A stretch of 64,000 nucleotides of DNA, taken from assembly GCF_000018285.1 (NCBI RefSeq), contig NC_009901.1, positions 4,463,001 to 4,527,000 on the forward strand. The letters run 5' to 3'. Each line of letters starts with the position of its first letter. Positions within the stretch are counted from its first letter, which is position 1. The notes beneath the pieces are model-generated. The model saw only the letters and a program-made list of their open reading frames with translations. It did no database searches and had not been told where the DNA came from. The position numbers were made by a program, and so were the translations under genes. Below, piece by piece: positions 17,296-25,361 of the stretch. This DNA comes from Shewanella pealeana ATCC 700345. Lineage in GTDB: Bacteria; Pseudomonadota; Gammaproteobacteria; Enterobacterales; Shewanellaceae.

Positions 17296-17348
17296 TACTT
17301 ATGTTTAGCCCTTAGTTTAGCCGTGCAACCAAACATTGTGCAAAATCA

Positions 17349-17444
17349 ATGCATTACACACCAACATATGGCAAGATTGCTCTCTTAATAGGTAATGACA
17401 TCAATTGTAACCAGTGCACTAAAAAACGCGCCGATGAAACAAGC
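17349..17444 (+). pseudogene. Remnant of a NERD/zinc-ribbon gene (3' part)
   Basis: This stretch matches the part of the intact NERD gene at about 22672-22758 that encodes YTPMYGKFGYYINCNQCTK, with base changes, a small insertion and frame disruption. Homology ends at AAACAAGC, where the 108-bp repeat begins. No function is expected. Confidence 0.75.
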
Positions 17445-17636: not shown

Positions 17637-18197
17637 ATGAGTGATTATTTTTTTGCAAGAGAGAACCAGCTGACGCCAATATATGCAGTAGCTGAAGAGT
17701 TTGAAGAGGCGGCATTCAGTACTCGGTTTACTTTTCCAAGTGCACCTATACCTGTTTTTGCCACGCATAAACCAGCACAAGACTACGAGATCGCCGATAT
17801 TATATTGGAGCCAGCACTCGCTATCGCTAAGCGCCTTTTTGATTCGCTACAACTAGAGCAGCTATATGGCGCAAACTGGATCCCGCTCAAACTAATTGAT
17901 CAAGGCGAACACGATTTTATGATGCTGCAATTGGCACATGAGGTCGATGTTATTTGCCATGAACAGAGCACATTTAAGCGATTCAAACGCGGCTATATCA
18001 CAGGTATGAAAACACTGGTTATTGACTCTAATAAACTTGCGCAGCTCCCGCTATACAAACGGCTGGTGTTTCGCGATAAATCTTGGGGGTTTCACACCTT
18101 TTATCATAAAGATATCGTCAACCAAATAATGCGTCACTCACCGAAGGGAATCGAATTCGTGCCAATTGAAACTTTTAACGAGTCGTGGGCAGGCTGA
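17637..18197 (+). CDS. Imm11-type (DUF1629) immunity protein
   Basis: A 186-residue soluble protein matching the Imm11/DUF1629 pattern: DIILEPALAIAKRLFDSL, then GANWIPLKLID, a central segment, KTLVIDSNKL, RLVFRDKSWGFHTFYHKDIVNQI, and the closing KGIEFVPIET. This family is known from polymorphic-toxin loci, where it protects against a cognate toxin. The start follows AAAGG. The next gene begins one base after its stop, so the pair is co-transcribed. No toxin gene with RHS, VgrG, LXG or similar features is nearby, so it is an orphan. A broken paralogue lies at 11853. Confidence 0.72.
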   Translation: MSDYFFARENQLTPIYAVAEEFEEAAFSTRFTFPSAPIPVFATHKPAQDYEIADIILEPALAIAKRLFDSLQLEQLYGANWIPLKLIDQGEHDFMMLQLAHEVDVICHEQSTFKRFKRGYITGMKTLVIDSNKLAQLPLYKRLVFRDKSWGFHTFYHKDIVNQIMRHSPKGIEFVPIETFNESWAG

Positions 18198-18990: not shown

Positions 18991-19962
18991 TTAGCCAAGA
19001 TACTGGCAACTACTGGTAAAGTGCCTTCGTCGTTTTTCTAGATGTTCGCAGTAATTGGTTAACTCTTGCAGCGACCCAACAGGCCCGTGAAACAACTTGC
19101 CAAAATCTCTAGCCAACTTGAGCCAATTTTCACTAGGAATATTAAGCCTTTCCAATACCCTTTCAGCACTTTGGGAAATAGCACCTCGCTTATCATCACG
19201 AATGATTCGCCCAGTCTCGTCGACAAGAGTGAGGTAGTCCTGCAGCGAGAAATTAATGCCTTTTGATTGGAGCTTTGTCTCATTACCAATAAACGGTAAT
19301 AACTTAGCAGGTTGTTTACCTTTTAAGGCTGCGTTCACTCGTAGTTGTAAGCTAGTAAAATCAGATTGTTCTGGGGTCTTAGCTATCTTGGCACGAATAG
19401 GATTGAGCTCAACATAAGCCATACAAGCCAACACAGCAGCTTCATCAAGTAATGCTTGGCTTTTAAATCGGCCTTCCCAGAAATGCCCCGTGCAATTGTC
19501 TTCATAGTTAGCTTGTCTTGCGATAGGCTCATTCAAGCAACGCATAAACCAGCTGATATCACTAAGGCGGGATCGGTATGTCGCTATCAAATGCTTTAGC
19601 GTGGCTACCATGCACTCTTCAATTACGTCTCCTTTAGCAAACTTCTGAGTTAAATCAGTGCCATTAAACAACATATGCCACTGTACTACTACTTCCCTAT
19701 CAGACCAGTTGTTCACTGTTTCAAGGTCGATATAAAGCACCACATGCAGATGATTACTCATCACAGCATACGCAGCCACATCTATCGCAAACACCTCTGT
19801 TAATTTCAGTATCTGAGCCTCAACCCAACCACGGCGATGGTCATAGTTCTTCCCCGTGTATTTATCATCACCACACAAGTAAGCGCGACGAACAACACGA
19901 CTACAACAGTGATAGTAAGGCGTATCTTCCAAGCTTATTAGCGTACTTCTAGCGCGGGGCAT
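18991..19962 (-). CDS. REP-associated tyrosine transposase (RAYT / Y1-type), full copy
   Basis: A single-strand DNA transposase of the HUH (Y1) superfamily, associated with mobilising palindromic repeats. The 323-residue length is normal for the larger RAYT group. The N-terminus is PRARSTLISLEDTPYYHCCSR; the metal-binding HUH motif is NHLHVVLY (H71, H73). Family blocks NEPIARQANYEDNCTGHFWE and AYVELNPIRAKIA follow, then a C-terminal helical part absent from the other copies. The start is ATG 19962, preceded by GGAGG. A leader shared by all three copies precedes it. It is probably intact. Confidence 0.88.
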   Translation of the reverse strand: MPRARSTLISLEDTPYYHCCSRVVRRAYLCGDDKYTGKNYDHRRGWVEAQILKLTEVFAIDVAAYAVMSNHLHVVLYIDLETVNNWSDREVVVQWHMLFNGTDLTQKFAKGDVIEECMVATLKHLIATYRSRLSDISWFMRCLNEPIARQANYEDNCTGHFWEGRFKSQALLDEAAVLACMAYVELNPIRAKIAKTPEQSDFTSLQLRVNAALKGKQPAKLLPFIGNETKLQSKGINFSLQDYLTLVDETGRIIRDDKRGAISQSAERVLERLNIPSENWLKLARDFGKLFHGPVGSLQELTNYCEHLEKRRRHFTSSCQYLG

Positions 19963-20052
19963 AACAACCTCCTACTTCAGCAATAACTAAACCAACAGTT
20001 AAAGCTTAGTAAGAGGCAGCAAAACATGCCATTGAGGATGGGTGTCTATAAT
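19963..20052. repeat. RAYT leader repeat, copy 1, ending in GGGTGTCTAT
   Basis: About 90 bases upstream of the full transposase ORF, nearly identical to 20679-20771 and 21402-21493. It runs from the GGAGG ribosome-binding site to the motif GGGTGTCTAT (20039-20048), where similarity stops. At this point the second, truncated transposase copy is cut. Confidence 0.8.
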
Positions 20053-20678
20053 GGGTTTTAAATCAGATTCTTCTGGGGTCTTAGCTATCTTGGCACGAAT
20101 AGGATTGAGTTCAACATAAGCCATACAAGCCAGCACTGCAGCTTCATCAAGTAATGCTTGGCTTTTGAAGCGCCCCTCCCAGAAATGCCCTGTGCAGTTG
20201 TCTTCATAGTTAGCTTGTCTTGCGATAGGTTCATTCAAGCAGCGCATAAACCAGCTGATATCACTCAGGCGTGAGCGGTATTTCGCTATAAGATGTTTTA
20301 GTGACGCAACCATACACTCTTCAATTAAGTCACCTTTAACAAATTTCCTTGTTAAATCAGTACCATTAAACAGCCGATGCCATTGCTCGACAACTTCCCT
20401 ATCAGACCAGCTGTTCACCATTTCAAGGTCGATATAAAGCACCACATGCAGATGATTACTCATCACAGCATACGCAGCCACATCTATCGCAAACGCCTCT
20501 GTTAATTTCAGTATCTGAGCCTCAACCCAACCACGCCGATGGTCATAATTCTTGCCTGTATATTTATCATCACCGCACAAGAAAGCACGCCGCACGACTC
20601 GGCTACAGCAGTGATAGTAAGGACTTCTTGTTAAATAGAGGGCTCTAAGCTTATTAGCGTACTTCTAGCGCGGGGCAT
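20039..20678 (-). pseudogene. REP-associated tyrosine transposase, broken copy 2
   Basis: Very similar to the full copy from RRAFLCGDDKYTG to PIRAKIAKTPEESDL. It has two lesions. Near the start, about 12 bases after AAGCTT are replaced by about 26, which shifts the frame and creates a TAA soon after the original ATG (20678). At the other end the sequence departs from the full copy at about 20066 and runs into the neighbouring leader, giving a short unrelated tail (IIDTHPQWHVLL). The HUH motif NHLHVVLY remains, but the C-terminal third is lost. A 198-residue product could only start internally. Confidence 0.85.
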
Positions 20679-21794: not shown

Positions 21795-22856
21795 ATGATT
21801 CTAAAAACTAAATCCCCGCAAAATGCGCGATCCGCTCAAGCGATTGCAGGCCAGCAACAAGAACAAAATGTGGCGTTCTTTCTGCGCCGTGCCTATAAAG
21901 ATCACCCACAGGTGTTAGTGATCAACGATTTCAAGTTTCGCTTTAACGACGAAGTCGCCCAAATAGACCATCTCATCGTGTATACCTACGGTTTTGTCTT
22001 AATTGAGTCGAAGAGCATCAGAGGTCAGGTAAAGGTCAATCAAAAACAGGAATGGACGCGCAGCCTAAGCACTTATCAAGGCAAGACTGACAAGTGGCAA
22101 GGTATGCCCTCGCCCATCAAGCAAGTCGAGCTGCAGCAAGCCCTGTTACTCGAATTATTAATGCATCATCGCAGTGAGATATTAGGCAAATTACTCGGCC
22201 TAAAACAGCAAGGCTTCAAGGGGCGATGCTGGGATCATCTGTGCGCTGTTTCTAGTGATGCTATTATCGATAGAAAATCCATGCCCAAAGCGGTATCAGA
22301 CAAGCTTATAAAATCTGAATTTCTGGTAGAGAAACTCGACAAGGTGATGAACCTAAAGACTAAGTTTGCCAGATTTATGCATGCTAGCGATACACGCCCA
22401 GACTTCAACCAAGAAGAACTCGAATCTGTTGCCTCATTTCTTATCAAGCAACATATCGCACCTCATACGACCGCAACAGAAGCAGCAACTGCAACAGTAG
22501 CAAGCCAAACAGCCACCGAGCAAAGCACCGCATCACTAAAAACCACACCAGTAACAGTAGCTGCCAGCACAGCGCCTGCTCAACAAACGCTAGCAAAGAC
22601 CACGCAACAAGAACCAGTAGAGAAAAGCCAAGCGATACAACTAGTTTTGCGCTGCAAACATTGCGGAGAATCAACGAATTACACCCCAATGTATGGCAAA
22701 TTCGGCTATTACATCAATTGTAATCAATGCACTAAAAACACGCCGATGAAACAAGCCTGCCCACAGTGCAGCAGCAAGAATACAAGAGTTAAGAAAAGCA
22801 AAGAGACTTACACCCTAAGCTGCCAAGAGTGTGGTTGTGGACAACGGGTAATTTAG
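21795..22856 (+). CDS. NERD-domain protein with C-terminal zinc ribbons
   Basis: 353 residues. The N-terminal nuclease-related domain (about 15-130) has the core DEVAQIDHLIVY (D58) and FVLIESKSIRG (E71, K73), the restriction-endonuclease-like D...ExK pattern. A helical middle and an Ala/Thr/Gln-rich linker (about 220-275) follow. The C-terminus has topoisomerase-like zinc ribbons: CKHCG, CNQC, CPQC, CQECGCG. DNA binding and possibly cleavage are expected from the family; such proteins occur in defence-rich regions. No clear ribosome-binding site precedes ATG 21795. A remnant of a second copy is at 17349. Its target is unknown. Confidence 0.85.
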   Translation: MILKTKSPQNARSAQAIAGQQQEQNVAFFLRRAYKDHPQVLVINDFKFRFNDEVAQIDHLIVYTYGFVLIESKSIRGQVKVNQKQEWTRSLSTYQGKTDKWQGMPSPIKQVELQQALLLELLMHHRSEILGKLLGLKQQGFKGRCWDHLCAVSSDAIIDRKSMPKAVSDKLIKSEFLVEKLDKVMNLKTKFARFMHASDTRPDFNQEELESVASFLIKQHIAPHTTATEAATATVASQTATEQSTASLKTTPVTVAASTAPAQQTLAKTTQQEPVEKSQAIQLVLRCKHCGESTNYTPMYGKFGYYINCNQCTKNTPMKQACPQCSSKNTRVKKSKETYTLSCQECGCGQRVI

Positions 22857-22982
22857 GGGTTAGATAAGGTTTACTCTAGTCTTACCTATTCATGTAAGAA
22901 TCAAAAAATTATACAATACTATCAACATCTTGTTGTTAATATTTGCACCGTCATACAATATAATATTTTTTAGGGACAAAAG

Positions 22983-24062
22983 TTGAAGAAAAAAATACAG
23001 TTTTTTCATAAAACAAGAGCAAGAGTTATACAACGAAAAGCCCTAAAAAAGGCTCAACGAAAAACTAGAAGTAAGCAGACTTCTAGTACTGGTCGCCCAA
23101 AAAAACTCGGCGCAGCTGAAATAATTTATGCACCTCTCGAGTTTTCTATATATGAGCTAGCTGAAGGTGACACTCAAAAATACAGCGAAGCCATTGATTT
23201 TATTGAAAAAATAAAATCAATTGACCATTCTAAATCCTATATTATTGATTTTTCCAATACTGAACGTGTTACAGCGGCAGCTTTGCTACTTCTTTATGCT
23301 ACGATAGATCAAAAGAAAGTTACTGGGCCAGTAAACTCCTCAATCGTATGGCCACATAGCGATTCAGCAAGAAGGGTTATAGTAAAATCAGGGTTAAATA
23401 AGTTATTGCAAAACACTCTAAATACAGAGGAACCTGACTTTTCAAATACTATTATTAGTGGTGTTGGTAATGATAAAGTTGAAAGTCTCATCGATCATAT
23501 AGAGCAATCTGTATACAAAAATCAAATGGATGACGAGGTTGAATACCTATATGGTGATGCAATATCTGAAACAATTAATAATGTAGGAAGACATGCTTAT
23601 CCCGAATCAAATGCATCTGATAAAAAATGGTGGATTCTTTGTGATGTAATAGGTGATAAACTATTTGTACTTATTTATGACTGTGGAATTGGTATCCCTA
23701 AAACGGTTGTCAAAAGAAACTGGTTTATTAGTTCTGTAGAAAAATTTTATCCTGAGCAATATGCCGAAGCCAAACAGGCTCCTGCGAGTCAAAGCAAATT
23801 GTATTTTTTTGGCTCTTTAAAGGACGAAAATCTTATTGATCTTGCGATGAAGCAAGATGTAACAGGAACTCTCAAAAGTAAACACGGTCAAGGAAGTAAG
23901 AGCATTAAAGCTCTAGTCAGCGAAACTCATAGAGGAAAGTTGTGGATTTACAGCAATAAAGGGCTTTTAACTTTTAAGAATGTTGACACCCCGGTAGACT
24001 TGCACACCCTCAACAAAGGATTTCCTGGAACTTTAGTACAGTGGAACATTAAAATATCATGA
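22983..24062 (+). CDS. GHKL-type ATPase with N-terminal STAS-like domain
   Basis: 359 residues starting at TTG, six bases after AGGGA; no Met codon occurs until about residue 182, so the rare start is well supported. The order is a very basic N-terminus (1-40), a STAS-like region (about 47-145, with SYIIDFSNTERVTAAALLLLY), and a GHKL ATPase domain. The N box is DAISETINNVGRHAYP (E196, N200), then YDCGIGIP (233-239) and KHGQGSKSI (300-308). There is no dimerisation/phospho-His domain, so this is not a classical sensor kinase; it resembles anti-sigma-type or GHKL switch ATPases. It overlaps the next gene by four bases (ATGA). DNA is more AT-rich than the flanking core genes. Confidence 0.8.
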   Translation: MKKKIQFFHKTRARVIQRKALKKAQRKTRSKQTSSTGRPKKLGAAEIIYAPLEFSIYELAEGDTQKYSEAIDFIEKIKSIDHSKSYIIDFSNTERVTAAALLLLYATIDQKKVTGPVNSSIVWPHSDSARRVIVKSGLNKLLQNTLNTEEPDFSNTIISGVGNDKVESLIDHIEQSVYKNQMDDEVEYLYGDAISETINNVGRHAYPESNASDKKWWILCDVIGDKLFVLIYDCGIGIPKTVVKRNWFISSVEKFYPEQYAEAKQAPASQSKLYFFGSLKDENLIDLAMKQDVTGTLKSKHGQGSKSIKALVSETHRGKLWIYSNKGLLTFKNVDTPVDLHTLNKGFPGTLVQWNIKIS

Positions 24063-24409
24063 AAACTAAGAAGCTAAAGAATATTGTAGTTACAGATTTC
24101 CATCCAAAGCCTTACGGTAGGTATACAACTGATGGCCCTGGTTGTGAATTATCAAGTGGTGAGGTCTTTAGAGATAAAGTTTTAGCTCCAGCCCTAAGAG
24201 ATTATGATTTAGTTCATGTAGACTTAACTGGATATAACAGGTACGGCCGGTCTTTTCTTGATGAAGCCTTCGGAGGGTTAATAAGGGAATCTGGCTTCAA
24301 CTATCAAGAACTTAAAGAAAAACTAACATACGACCATGAATCTGTGAAAAGTATTTTACAAGTTATAGATGAACGAATTGAAGCTGCAGAAAGGGATAGG
24401 AATAGCTAA
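24059..24409 (+). CDS. STAS-like domain protein (DUF4325 family)
   Basis: 116 residues beginning at the ATGA overlap with the ATPase gene, so translation is probably coupled. It matches DUF4325 STAS-like proteins: GRYTTDGPGCELSSGEVFRD near residues 17-40, the strand LVHVDLTGYNRYG, and SFLDEAFGGLIRESGF. These are often found beside GHKL ATPases. By analogy to SpoIIAA/SpoIIAB it could bind the ATPase, but the usual phosphoacceptor Ser context is not certain here. The next gene starts one base after its stop. Confidence 0.8.
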   Translation: MKTKKLKNIVVTDFHPKPYGRYTTDGPGCELSSGEVFRDKVLAPALRDYDLVHVDLTGYNRYGRSFLDEAFGGLIRESGFNYQELKEKLTYDHESVKSILQVIDERIEAAERDRNS

Positions 24410-24410
24410 G

Positions 24411-24944
24411 ATGTCAACATGGCAATTCAGCGTTCAAATCCTAAGTTGGCTATTCATTTTTTACTTACATATCAGAAACTTAAGGAAATCTGAAATATCT
24501 AAACTAAAAGAAAACATTTTAACTACTCTCGATAAACTACCCGAAACTTACTGCAAAAAACTCGATTATGACGAAATAAGTGTTCTAGATGCAGAGGAAA
24601 CACTCTCAATGCTAGTTAATCGGATTGAGTTTCAGGTAATCAGCTTGAATAAATACGCAAACAAGATCATTTTTGAACCTTCTCGCTTATCAGTATTAAG
24701 AAGTATCGAGCTAACAGAGCATAACTTGAAGAAAGAAAGCATTGATAGGCATAAGCTAGAGAAGAGTATTCTAGAAAAAATAAGTGACTTAACCGAAGAA
24801 ATTGAGAGTTCATACATTACTGAGACTTATAGCAAAAATCCATTAAGATCATTTATCGAAACAAGAAGGTATGAAATAAAAGGAGCAACTTTTGGAGCCC
24901 TCCTAATCTACGTATATAGTGTTTTTTTTCAAATAATATACTGA
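24411..24944 (+). CDS. Membrane protein, third gene of the STAS/GHKL operon
   Basis: 177 residues from ATG 24411, one base after the DUF4325 stop; an in-frame ATG at 24369 would overlap that gene. Hydrophobic segments lie at each end (about 4-20, VQILSWLFIFYL; about 160-177, FGALLIYVYSVFF). Between them is a charged, helical, coiled-coil-like middle (KLKENILTTLDKL, HKLEKSILEKISDLTEEIE). No family was recognised. Two membrane anchors with a cytoplasmic or periplasmic helical part would suit an effector or a sensor. The role is inference only. Confidence 0.65.
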   Translation: MSTWQFSVQILSWLFIFYLHIRNLRKSEISKLKENILTTLDKLPETYCKKLDYDEISVLDAEETLSMLVNRIEFQVISLNKYANKIIFEPSRLSVLRSIELTEHNLKKESIDRHKLEKSILEKISDLTEEIESSYITETYSKNPLRSFIETRRYEIKGATFGALLIYVYSVFFQIIY

Positions 24945-25120
24945 GATTTAAGTTAGCCTCACGTCAAAACATAACCGAGATTACAGTGTAACTAATTACG
25001 CATTAAATCCGATACCGTTAGGTATCGGGGCTTCATCTATTCACCAAGAGCTCTTTTACAAGAAATGGCTTTAAGCTTAAAGGCTATAGACCAGCAACCC
25101 TTTTACTAATTTTGCCCATT

Positions 25121-25324: not shown

Positions 25325-25361
25325 AAAAAGCCCCGATACCGTTAGGTATCGGGGCTTTTTT
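25325..25361 (-). terminator. Strong bidirectional terminator downstream of groEL
   Basis: AAAAAGCCCCGATACC, loop GTTA, GGTATCGGGGCTTTTT: a perfect stem with T-runs in both directions, about 160 bases past the groEL stop. Confidence 0.8.

Follow-up and report, generated by a model that had tools for sequence, protein, structure and literature searches.

The window analyzed here, a 64-kb stretch of Shewanella pealeana ATCC 700345 DNA (G000:C1:4463001-4527000) from a genome comprising a single 5.17-Mb contig, carries a three-gene operon on its + strand (22983-24944) that encodes a STAS protein fused to a SpoIIAB/RsbW-type kinase, a DUF4325 STAS protein, and a membrane protein. This trio recurs as a conserved unit, both in contigs of genomes and viruses and on a conjugative plasmid and P4 satellites. 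Its third genes all belong to a single homologous family that goes with DUF4325, and the closest known system is VapKSC. The trio is real, conserved, and mobile, and is most likely a defense switch. With a probability of roughly 0.55, we read it as a mobile phage-defense module of the kinase–STAS–effector type, in which the DUF4325 protein would act as inhibitor, its Ser65 would be phosphorylated, and the membrane protein would be the effector.

Organization of the Operon

The three genes abut or overlap (22983-24062, 24059-24409, and 24411-24944, all on the + strand), and the trio has a GC content of 34.8%, versus 45.0% for the window. Features of the operon are as follows.

22936..22964, + strand: promoter-like pair TTAATA-17-TATAAT just upstream of the operon (consensus scan, 10/12 matches; only suggestive)
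22972..22976, + strand: AGGGA ribosome-binding-like site, read from the sequence, 6 bases ahead of the TTG
22983..24062, + strand: gene 1, STAS plus SpoIIAB/RsbW-type (GHKL) kinase, 359 amino acids (aa), TTG start
22983..23117, + strand: Lys/Arg-rich N-terminal extension of gene 1, residues 1-45, net charge +17
23073..23417, + strand: STAS-like domain of gene 1, residues 31-145
23442..24059, + strand: SpoIIAB/RsbW-like kinase domain of gene 1, residues 154-359
24059..24409, + strand: gene 2, DUF4325 STAS-like protein (PF14213), 116 aa; proposed kinase substrate and effector inhibitor
24251..24253, + strand: codon of the invariant Ser65 of gene 2, a candidate phospho-acceptor (putative phosphorylation)
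24411..24944, + strand: gene 3, helical membrane protein, 177 aa; proposed effector

The kinase domain of gene 1 folds like SpoIIAB/RsbW in a structure comparison of the predicted model, with structure 6kko among the fold matches, and the protein gives a weak RsbW profile match (E 3e-4). A second structure comparison (VIA) matched protein 1 to a STAS chain; no STAS chain stood among the 50 best Foldseek matches listed. A Pfam scan found no helix–turn–helix (HTH) family on the kinase. The gene 2 protein is DUF4325 (PF14213, E 3.9e-13), which is the sole Pfam family on its 116 aa, and no winged HTH was found on it. Protein 3 has no Pfam family; its model (predicted local distance difference test score, 89) is a helical bundle with hydrophobic segments on the first and last helices. 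Together, the families, the fold, and the membrane model confirm the STAS-GHKL kinase/DUF4325/membrane protein operon that a first-pass annotation of the window had described.

Around the operon, the promoter consensus scan returned 5 matches versus 8.1 in shuffles. No LexA-like boxes were found at the operon (13 in the whole window versus 16.2 expected), and no tRNA genes were found across the 64 kb.

The Trio Is Inherited as a Unit

With a kinase profile, we collected 30 loci in genome contigs. DUF4325 lies directly downstream of the kinase in 28 of them; L028 has a remnant only and L025 leaves its contig. The third gene is intact in 26 of the 30 and frameshifted in L018, and it is missing from L024 and L025, which run off the contig, and from L028, which has none. 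Viral contigs gave a second sample: 230 stretches in IMG/VR encode a DUF4325 relative with the motif SF[LI][DE]E followed by [AS]FG, and 80 were kept. A kinase lies upstream of DUF4325 in 74 of these 80 loci, and four of the six kinase-less loci (L174, L175, L200, and L216) are within about 0.5 kb of a contig end. An open reading frame (ORF) follows DUF4325 in all 80, and the third-protein family profile recognizes 74 of these ORFs. Both samples bear out the co-occurrence in other genomes that the first-pass annotation had named as a check.

Sequence conservation differs across the three proteins. Among 83 distinct complete trios, mean pairwise identity is 0.429 for DUF4325, 0.257 for the kinase, and 0.168 for the membrane protein. 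In the same trios the distance matrices of the three proteins are correlated (0.74-0.86), a level that none of 999 permutations reached for any pair. Because the genes of an operon share their history, this correlation shows joint inheritance, not interaction.

The Third Gene Forms One Family

A third-family profile was seeded with gammaproteobacterial third proteins and iterated over 7433 ORFs from loci chosen by kinase or DUF4325. Each of the 120 matches immediately follows a DUF4325 gene of the same orientation. The profile recovered 103 of the 109 expected third proteins plus 17 more, missing six (L178, L188, L191, L204, L205, and L211); 119 of 139 DUF4325 ORFs are followed by a third-family gene and 20 are not. 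An unrelated, variable third gene is therefore rejected within these preselected loci, where every match of a single profile stands behind DUF4325. We also searched 369 whole genomes regardless of neighbors, which is the unbiased search and a test of specificity more than of spread. It returned nine third-family matches, the window's own included: seven strong ones adjoin DUF4325, and two marginal ones (E 3e-4 and 5e-4) do not.

In the viral-contig sample, an N-terminal hydrophobic segment is present in 65 of 70 distinct third proteins, versus 96 of 514 control ORFs of like length from the same viral contigs, and a stricter hydrophobicity threshold gives 57/70 versus 72/514.

DUF4325 genes without a third-family neighbor include L024 and L204, at contig ends, and L073 and L119, where the third gene encodes a PIN protein (E 1.1e-11 in L073; annotated as PIN in L119). 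L074 has a DUF4325 gene, a weak PIN match (E 0.096), and no kinase in the contig, L081 has a kinase and DUF4325 with no third gene seen, and the third protein of L114 is short, has one hydrophobic segment, and is not found by the family profile. Kinase–DUF4325 pairs with a different third protein occur at L078:118-1983, L088:913-4466, and L113:3149-5065; L078 and L113, each with another kind of membrane protein, are among the 20 DUF4325 ORFs that lack a third-family neighbor. These proteins are hydrophobic near the N terminus (two segments in L113; L078 and L088 as judged by eye) and are possible further effector types.

Likeness to VapKSC and Other Kinase–STAS Systems

The available text of PMC13373217 (EMBO J 2026) describes VapKSC as a STAS-GHKL kinase, a STAS antitoxin, and a PIN toxin, in that order. 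According to the same text, a phosphomimetic change of the conserved serine abolishes antitoxin restraint of the PIN toxin, the system protects about 2-log against one phage, and 103 of 289 VapKSC loci lie within 10 kb of another immune gene. The window's operon shares with VapKSC, so described, a three-gene layout with the (here proposed) effector gene third, a kinase built of STAS plus GHKL without an HTH, and a small STAS protein of the DUF4325 family in second place. The VapS piece of 9Z7O matches PF14213 at E 1.3e-17, stronger than the window protein's own match. A phmmer search of the Protein Data Bank (PDB) with the window DUF4325 protein gave nothing meaningful; a mixed DUF4325 profile that includes two VapS-like rows finds VapS in the PDB (E 1.9e-8), leaning on those rows.

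The two systems part at the third gene, which in the window encodes a helical membrane protein without a Pfam family, not the PIN-domain VapC nuclease. VapKSC-like loci with PIN third genes are present in our own survey (L073 and L119). Because the PIN effector is lacking, we do not file the trio as VapKSC; it looks to work like VapKSC.

The kinases differ as well. In an alignment of 115 rows (113 non-VapK and 2 VapK-like), residues E196, N200, D233, G235, G302, and G304 are kept in 113 or 114 rows. Trp216 is present in all 113 non-VapK rows, whereas both VapK-like rows have Ile; position 217 is Trp in 108 rows. The N terminus is basic in window-type kinases: 107 of the 113 non-VapK rows carry a net charge of +5 or more, a count in which some rows are near-identical and some ORF starts are set at the first possible codon. 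Single-stranded DNA (ssDNA) activates CapK, and aromatic stacking on ssDNA is reported for CapK and, by prediction, for VapK (PMC13373217, available text). The presumed column of CapK W68/VapK F54, assigned from the two VapK-like rows and not from published CapK/VapK sequences, is aromatic in 9 of 113 kinase rows, lacks an aromatic in 104, and is Trp in both VapK-like rows; the window kinase has Arg95 there. The kinase profile aligned query residues 171-356 with a VapK-like protein at a probability of only 56% (E 1.1e-4). As read from the alignment, the mostly absent stacking aromatic, the extra Trp216, and the basic tail suggest a different trigger or a different mode of nucleic acid binding.

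In the DUF4325 protein, Ser65, Phe66, Glu69, and Gly73 are each present in 83 of 83 distinct trios. In the genome survey, many gammaproteobacterial DUF4325 matches (L039-L068) come from ORFs some 350 aa long, which have an architecture of their own.

Other kinase–STAS systems are more distant. CapK plus CapS likewise pairs a STAS-GHKL kinase with a downstream STAS substrate, but CapS has a winged HTH and binds operon promoters (PMC13373217, available text), whereas the window STAS protein has no winged HTH. With neither an HTH family found on the kinase nor a winged HTH on its STAS partner, the pair is by its domains not a repressor pair. SpoIIAB/RsbW kinases are regulators of stress and development. 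The trio shares their kinase domain type with SpoIIAA/SpoIIAB and RsbV/RsbW but fuses STAS to the kinase, places a membrane protein third, and has no sigma factor (a family scan of the operon proteins found none in genes 1-3). In Pseudomonas, SiaB/SiaC of SiaABCD form a non-sigma kinase–STAS switch in a membrane-linked pathway. The 6kko fold match adds to this likeness; the trio operon differs in that a Pfam scan found no phosphatase or diguanylate cyclase gene within it. The fold, the DUF4325 family, and the VapKSC likeness support the first-pass view that the operon is built for partner switching but has a membrane protein and lacks a sigma factor.

The Trio Often Resides on Mobile DNA

A kinase relative is present in 3 of 35 other same-genus genomes, which rules out a core housekeeping locus, a result that would have counted against the first-pass reading. 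In Escherichia coli, 10 of 5426 genomes have a trio relative detectable with the L016 trio as DNA query, a lower bound. Seven of these ten loci were inspected. In four, the trio occupies the interval from integrase to psu in a P4 satellite inserted at ssrA; the remaining three adjoin a prophage integrase next to yjjG. The family profile recognizes the third proteins of L219 (E 7e-37) and L220 (E 1e-36). The psu-int slot of P4 satellites has been proposed as a reservoir of antiviral systems, several of them validated (Rousset et al. 2022, PMC9122126, available text). A conjugative Vibrio plasmid also carries the trio.

A CI-type repressor directly precedes the trio in Marinobacter phage AS1 and in a phage-like plasmid of P. 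multocida; the third protein of the plasmid, a short membrane protein, is not recognized by the family profile. The gene table in the accessible part of PMC7924643 gives the order CI repressor, 293-aa AS1-like protein, DUF4325, and transmembrane protein for Francisella phage KIRK. Across viral contigs, the nearest upstream ORFs include S24 repressors (8/61) and integrases (3/61), and downstream ORFs include 8 integrases and 6 portal proteins among 54 scanned of 63 (small ORFs excluded); because there are near-identical loci among the viral ones, the counts are not independent of one another. For 21 genome loci, the scan took in every ORF of 220 aa or more within 5 kb, 105 ORFs in total. They include at least 9 integrases and at least 5 S24 repressors among the best 25 of 143 Pfam families, and, among the best 25 of 75 PADLOC families, matches to PD-Lambda-1, PDC-S28, RT_UG29, MzaA, mad3, and methyltransferases, with 1-3 proteins each; both tallies are uncontrolled and are not used as proof.

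In the paper texts covered, the trio is not described as a system, and the accessible part of PMC7924643 gives its members as hypothetical proteins. WonAB and a GHKL Shedu, described in the available text of PMC12137116, are taken as unrelated to the trio.

Proposed Mechanism and Alternatives

We propose that at rest the DUF4325 protein would block the activity of the membrane protein. On infection or stress, a signal would activate the STAS-kinase, through a trigger that may differ from the ssDNA that activates CapK, and the kinase would then phosphorylate Ser65 of the DUF4325 protein. Phosphorylated DUF4325 would free the membrane protein, which would act at the inner membrane and stop the infection, probably at the cell's cost (abortive infection or exclusion). 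The VapKSC gene order and phosphomimetic result, the match of VapS to DUF4325, and the PIN loci in the survey together lead us to a model in which the membrane protein is restrained by DUF4325 and released by Ser65 phosphorylation; phosphorylation, inhibition of protein 3 by protein 2, membrane action, and an anti-phage effect are all putative. A bolder version has slightly less than an even chance in our estimate: the trio may represent an undescribed, widespread defense class in which a SpoIIAB-like kinase phosphorylates a DUF4325 inhibitor and frees a membrane-effector family, with a trigger other than the ssDNA stacking of CapK/VapK.

Several results weigh against the defense reading. None of the three proteins matched a PADLOC (2023) model up to E 1, and a fold search with protein 3 returned only generic helical bundles, nothing informative. 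The phospho-acceptor position of VapS is S48; in the alignment, Ser65 is displaced by a single residue from the serine of the VapS-like rows. A profile from 21 gammaproteobacterial DUF4325 proteins alone did not find VapS in the PDB. The whole-genome third-family search was insensitive, missing third genes, such as those of L070 and L072, that the iterated profile found. The hotspot and neighbor counts stand without a random-locus control, and most nearest upstream viral neighbors are not repressors. The first-pass annotation had also proposed a defense role, which stays a proposal: location in other genomes and resemblance to VapKSC now argue for it, and the NERD/transposase neighborhood to which it appealed is a weak argument.

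An unlikely alternative is that the membrane protein is a sensor or anchor for an envelope signal controlling the kinase–STAS pair, with another host or phage protein as output. Against it, gene order and the DUF4325 family match VapKSC, whose third gene is the effector. The third protein is also the most divergent of the trio (0.168 versus 0.257 and 0.429), which fits an effector, though a sensor too.

Somewhat less likely again is a temperate-phage module for lysogeny control or superinfection exclusion, which would block entry or set the lysis–lysogeny choice while leaving the host unharmed and would later have been captured by chromosomes. Lambda rexAB lies behind cI and has a membrane protein as its last gene. 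The trio has a cI-rexAB-like position in three phages or phage-like elements, with its membrane protein last, and the S24 repressors upstream (8/61) and integrases downstream (8/54) in viral contigs point the same way; position is the sole likeness to rexAB. Yet the trio is also found between int and psu of P4 satellites and on a conjugative plasmid, and in the window it occupies a chromosomal site with no phage gene recognized among the scanned neighbors, where lysogeny control would be idle.

A general switch for envelope stress or DNA damage, with no defense role, is improbable: the stress and developmental roles of SpoIIAB/RsbW kinases and the kinase fold match favor it, whereas the patchy distribution (3/35 other same-genus genomes) and frequent residence on mobile DNA speak against it.

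The groEL-Downstream Site

In the window, the trio lies between a NERD gene and the groEL side. We compared the stretch downstream of groEL in 13 same-genus genomes (14 located; about 14 kb each, with only 2.4 kb in L110) and found no match to the kinase, DUF4325, or the third gene. In L100 and L107, the slot taken by the trio in the window is occupied by an 866-aa ATPase that matches the PADLOC candidate PDC-S06 (E 0). A copy of 781 aa is present in L099 (E 8e-281), so that PDC-S06 is found downstream of groEL in 3 of the 13 genomes. One of the 13, L111, encodes a retron-type reverse transcriptase and its NDT_II-A partner (E 1.5e-82) just downstream of groEL, at L111:10864-12812. L106 carries a UvrD-like helicase and an ADP-ribosylglycohydrolase downstream of groEL, and L100 a HipA gene with a look-alike in L101. 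The PADLOC comparison at this site covered eight chosen proteins, so further defense genes may have escaped it. In this uncontrolled comparison, the site seems to accept defense-like cargo interchangeably.

Upstream of the trio, the 3' part of the NERD/zinc-ribbon gene recurs in direct but diverged copies at 17330-17425 and 22655-22738, which are 82-90% alike over short stretches. Because these copies flank transposase remnants, the block from 17.3 to 22.7 kb looks rearranged by duplication. Two tandem related transposase-like genes lie at 18991-20595, with weak Y1_Tnp matches below the cut-off; they are 90% alike over 300 bases, one is shorter, and relatives lie downstream of groEL in L103, L104, and L106. 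A weak Imm11 immunity-protein match (17637-18197; E 6.5e-4, below the curated cut-off) is followed by a gene for a small acidic protein. Downstream of the trio, identical 25-base copies lie at 25009-25033 and 25333-25357, the second within a terminator-like hairpin next to groEL, and similar stretches repeat downstream of groEL in L108.

Implications

If the defense reading is correct, it would add a membrane output to a phospho-switch described in 2026 and would give a name to a module of many viral contigs and satellites that PADLOC 2023 does not list. The functions of the membrane protein family and of trio-type DUF4325 would become directly testable, and the invariant Ser, the Trp, and the basic N terminus allow point-mutant tests of kinase sensing and target. 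On the bolder version, the kinase–STAS pair would be a general plug-in switch for repressors (CapKS), RNases (VapKSC), and, in the trio, membrane effectors.
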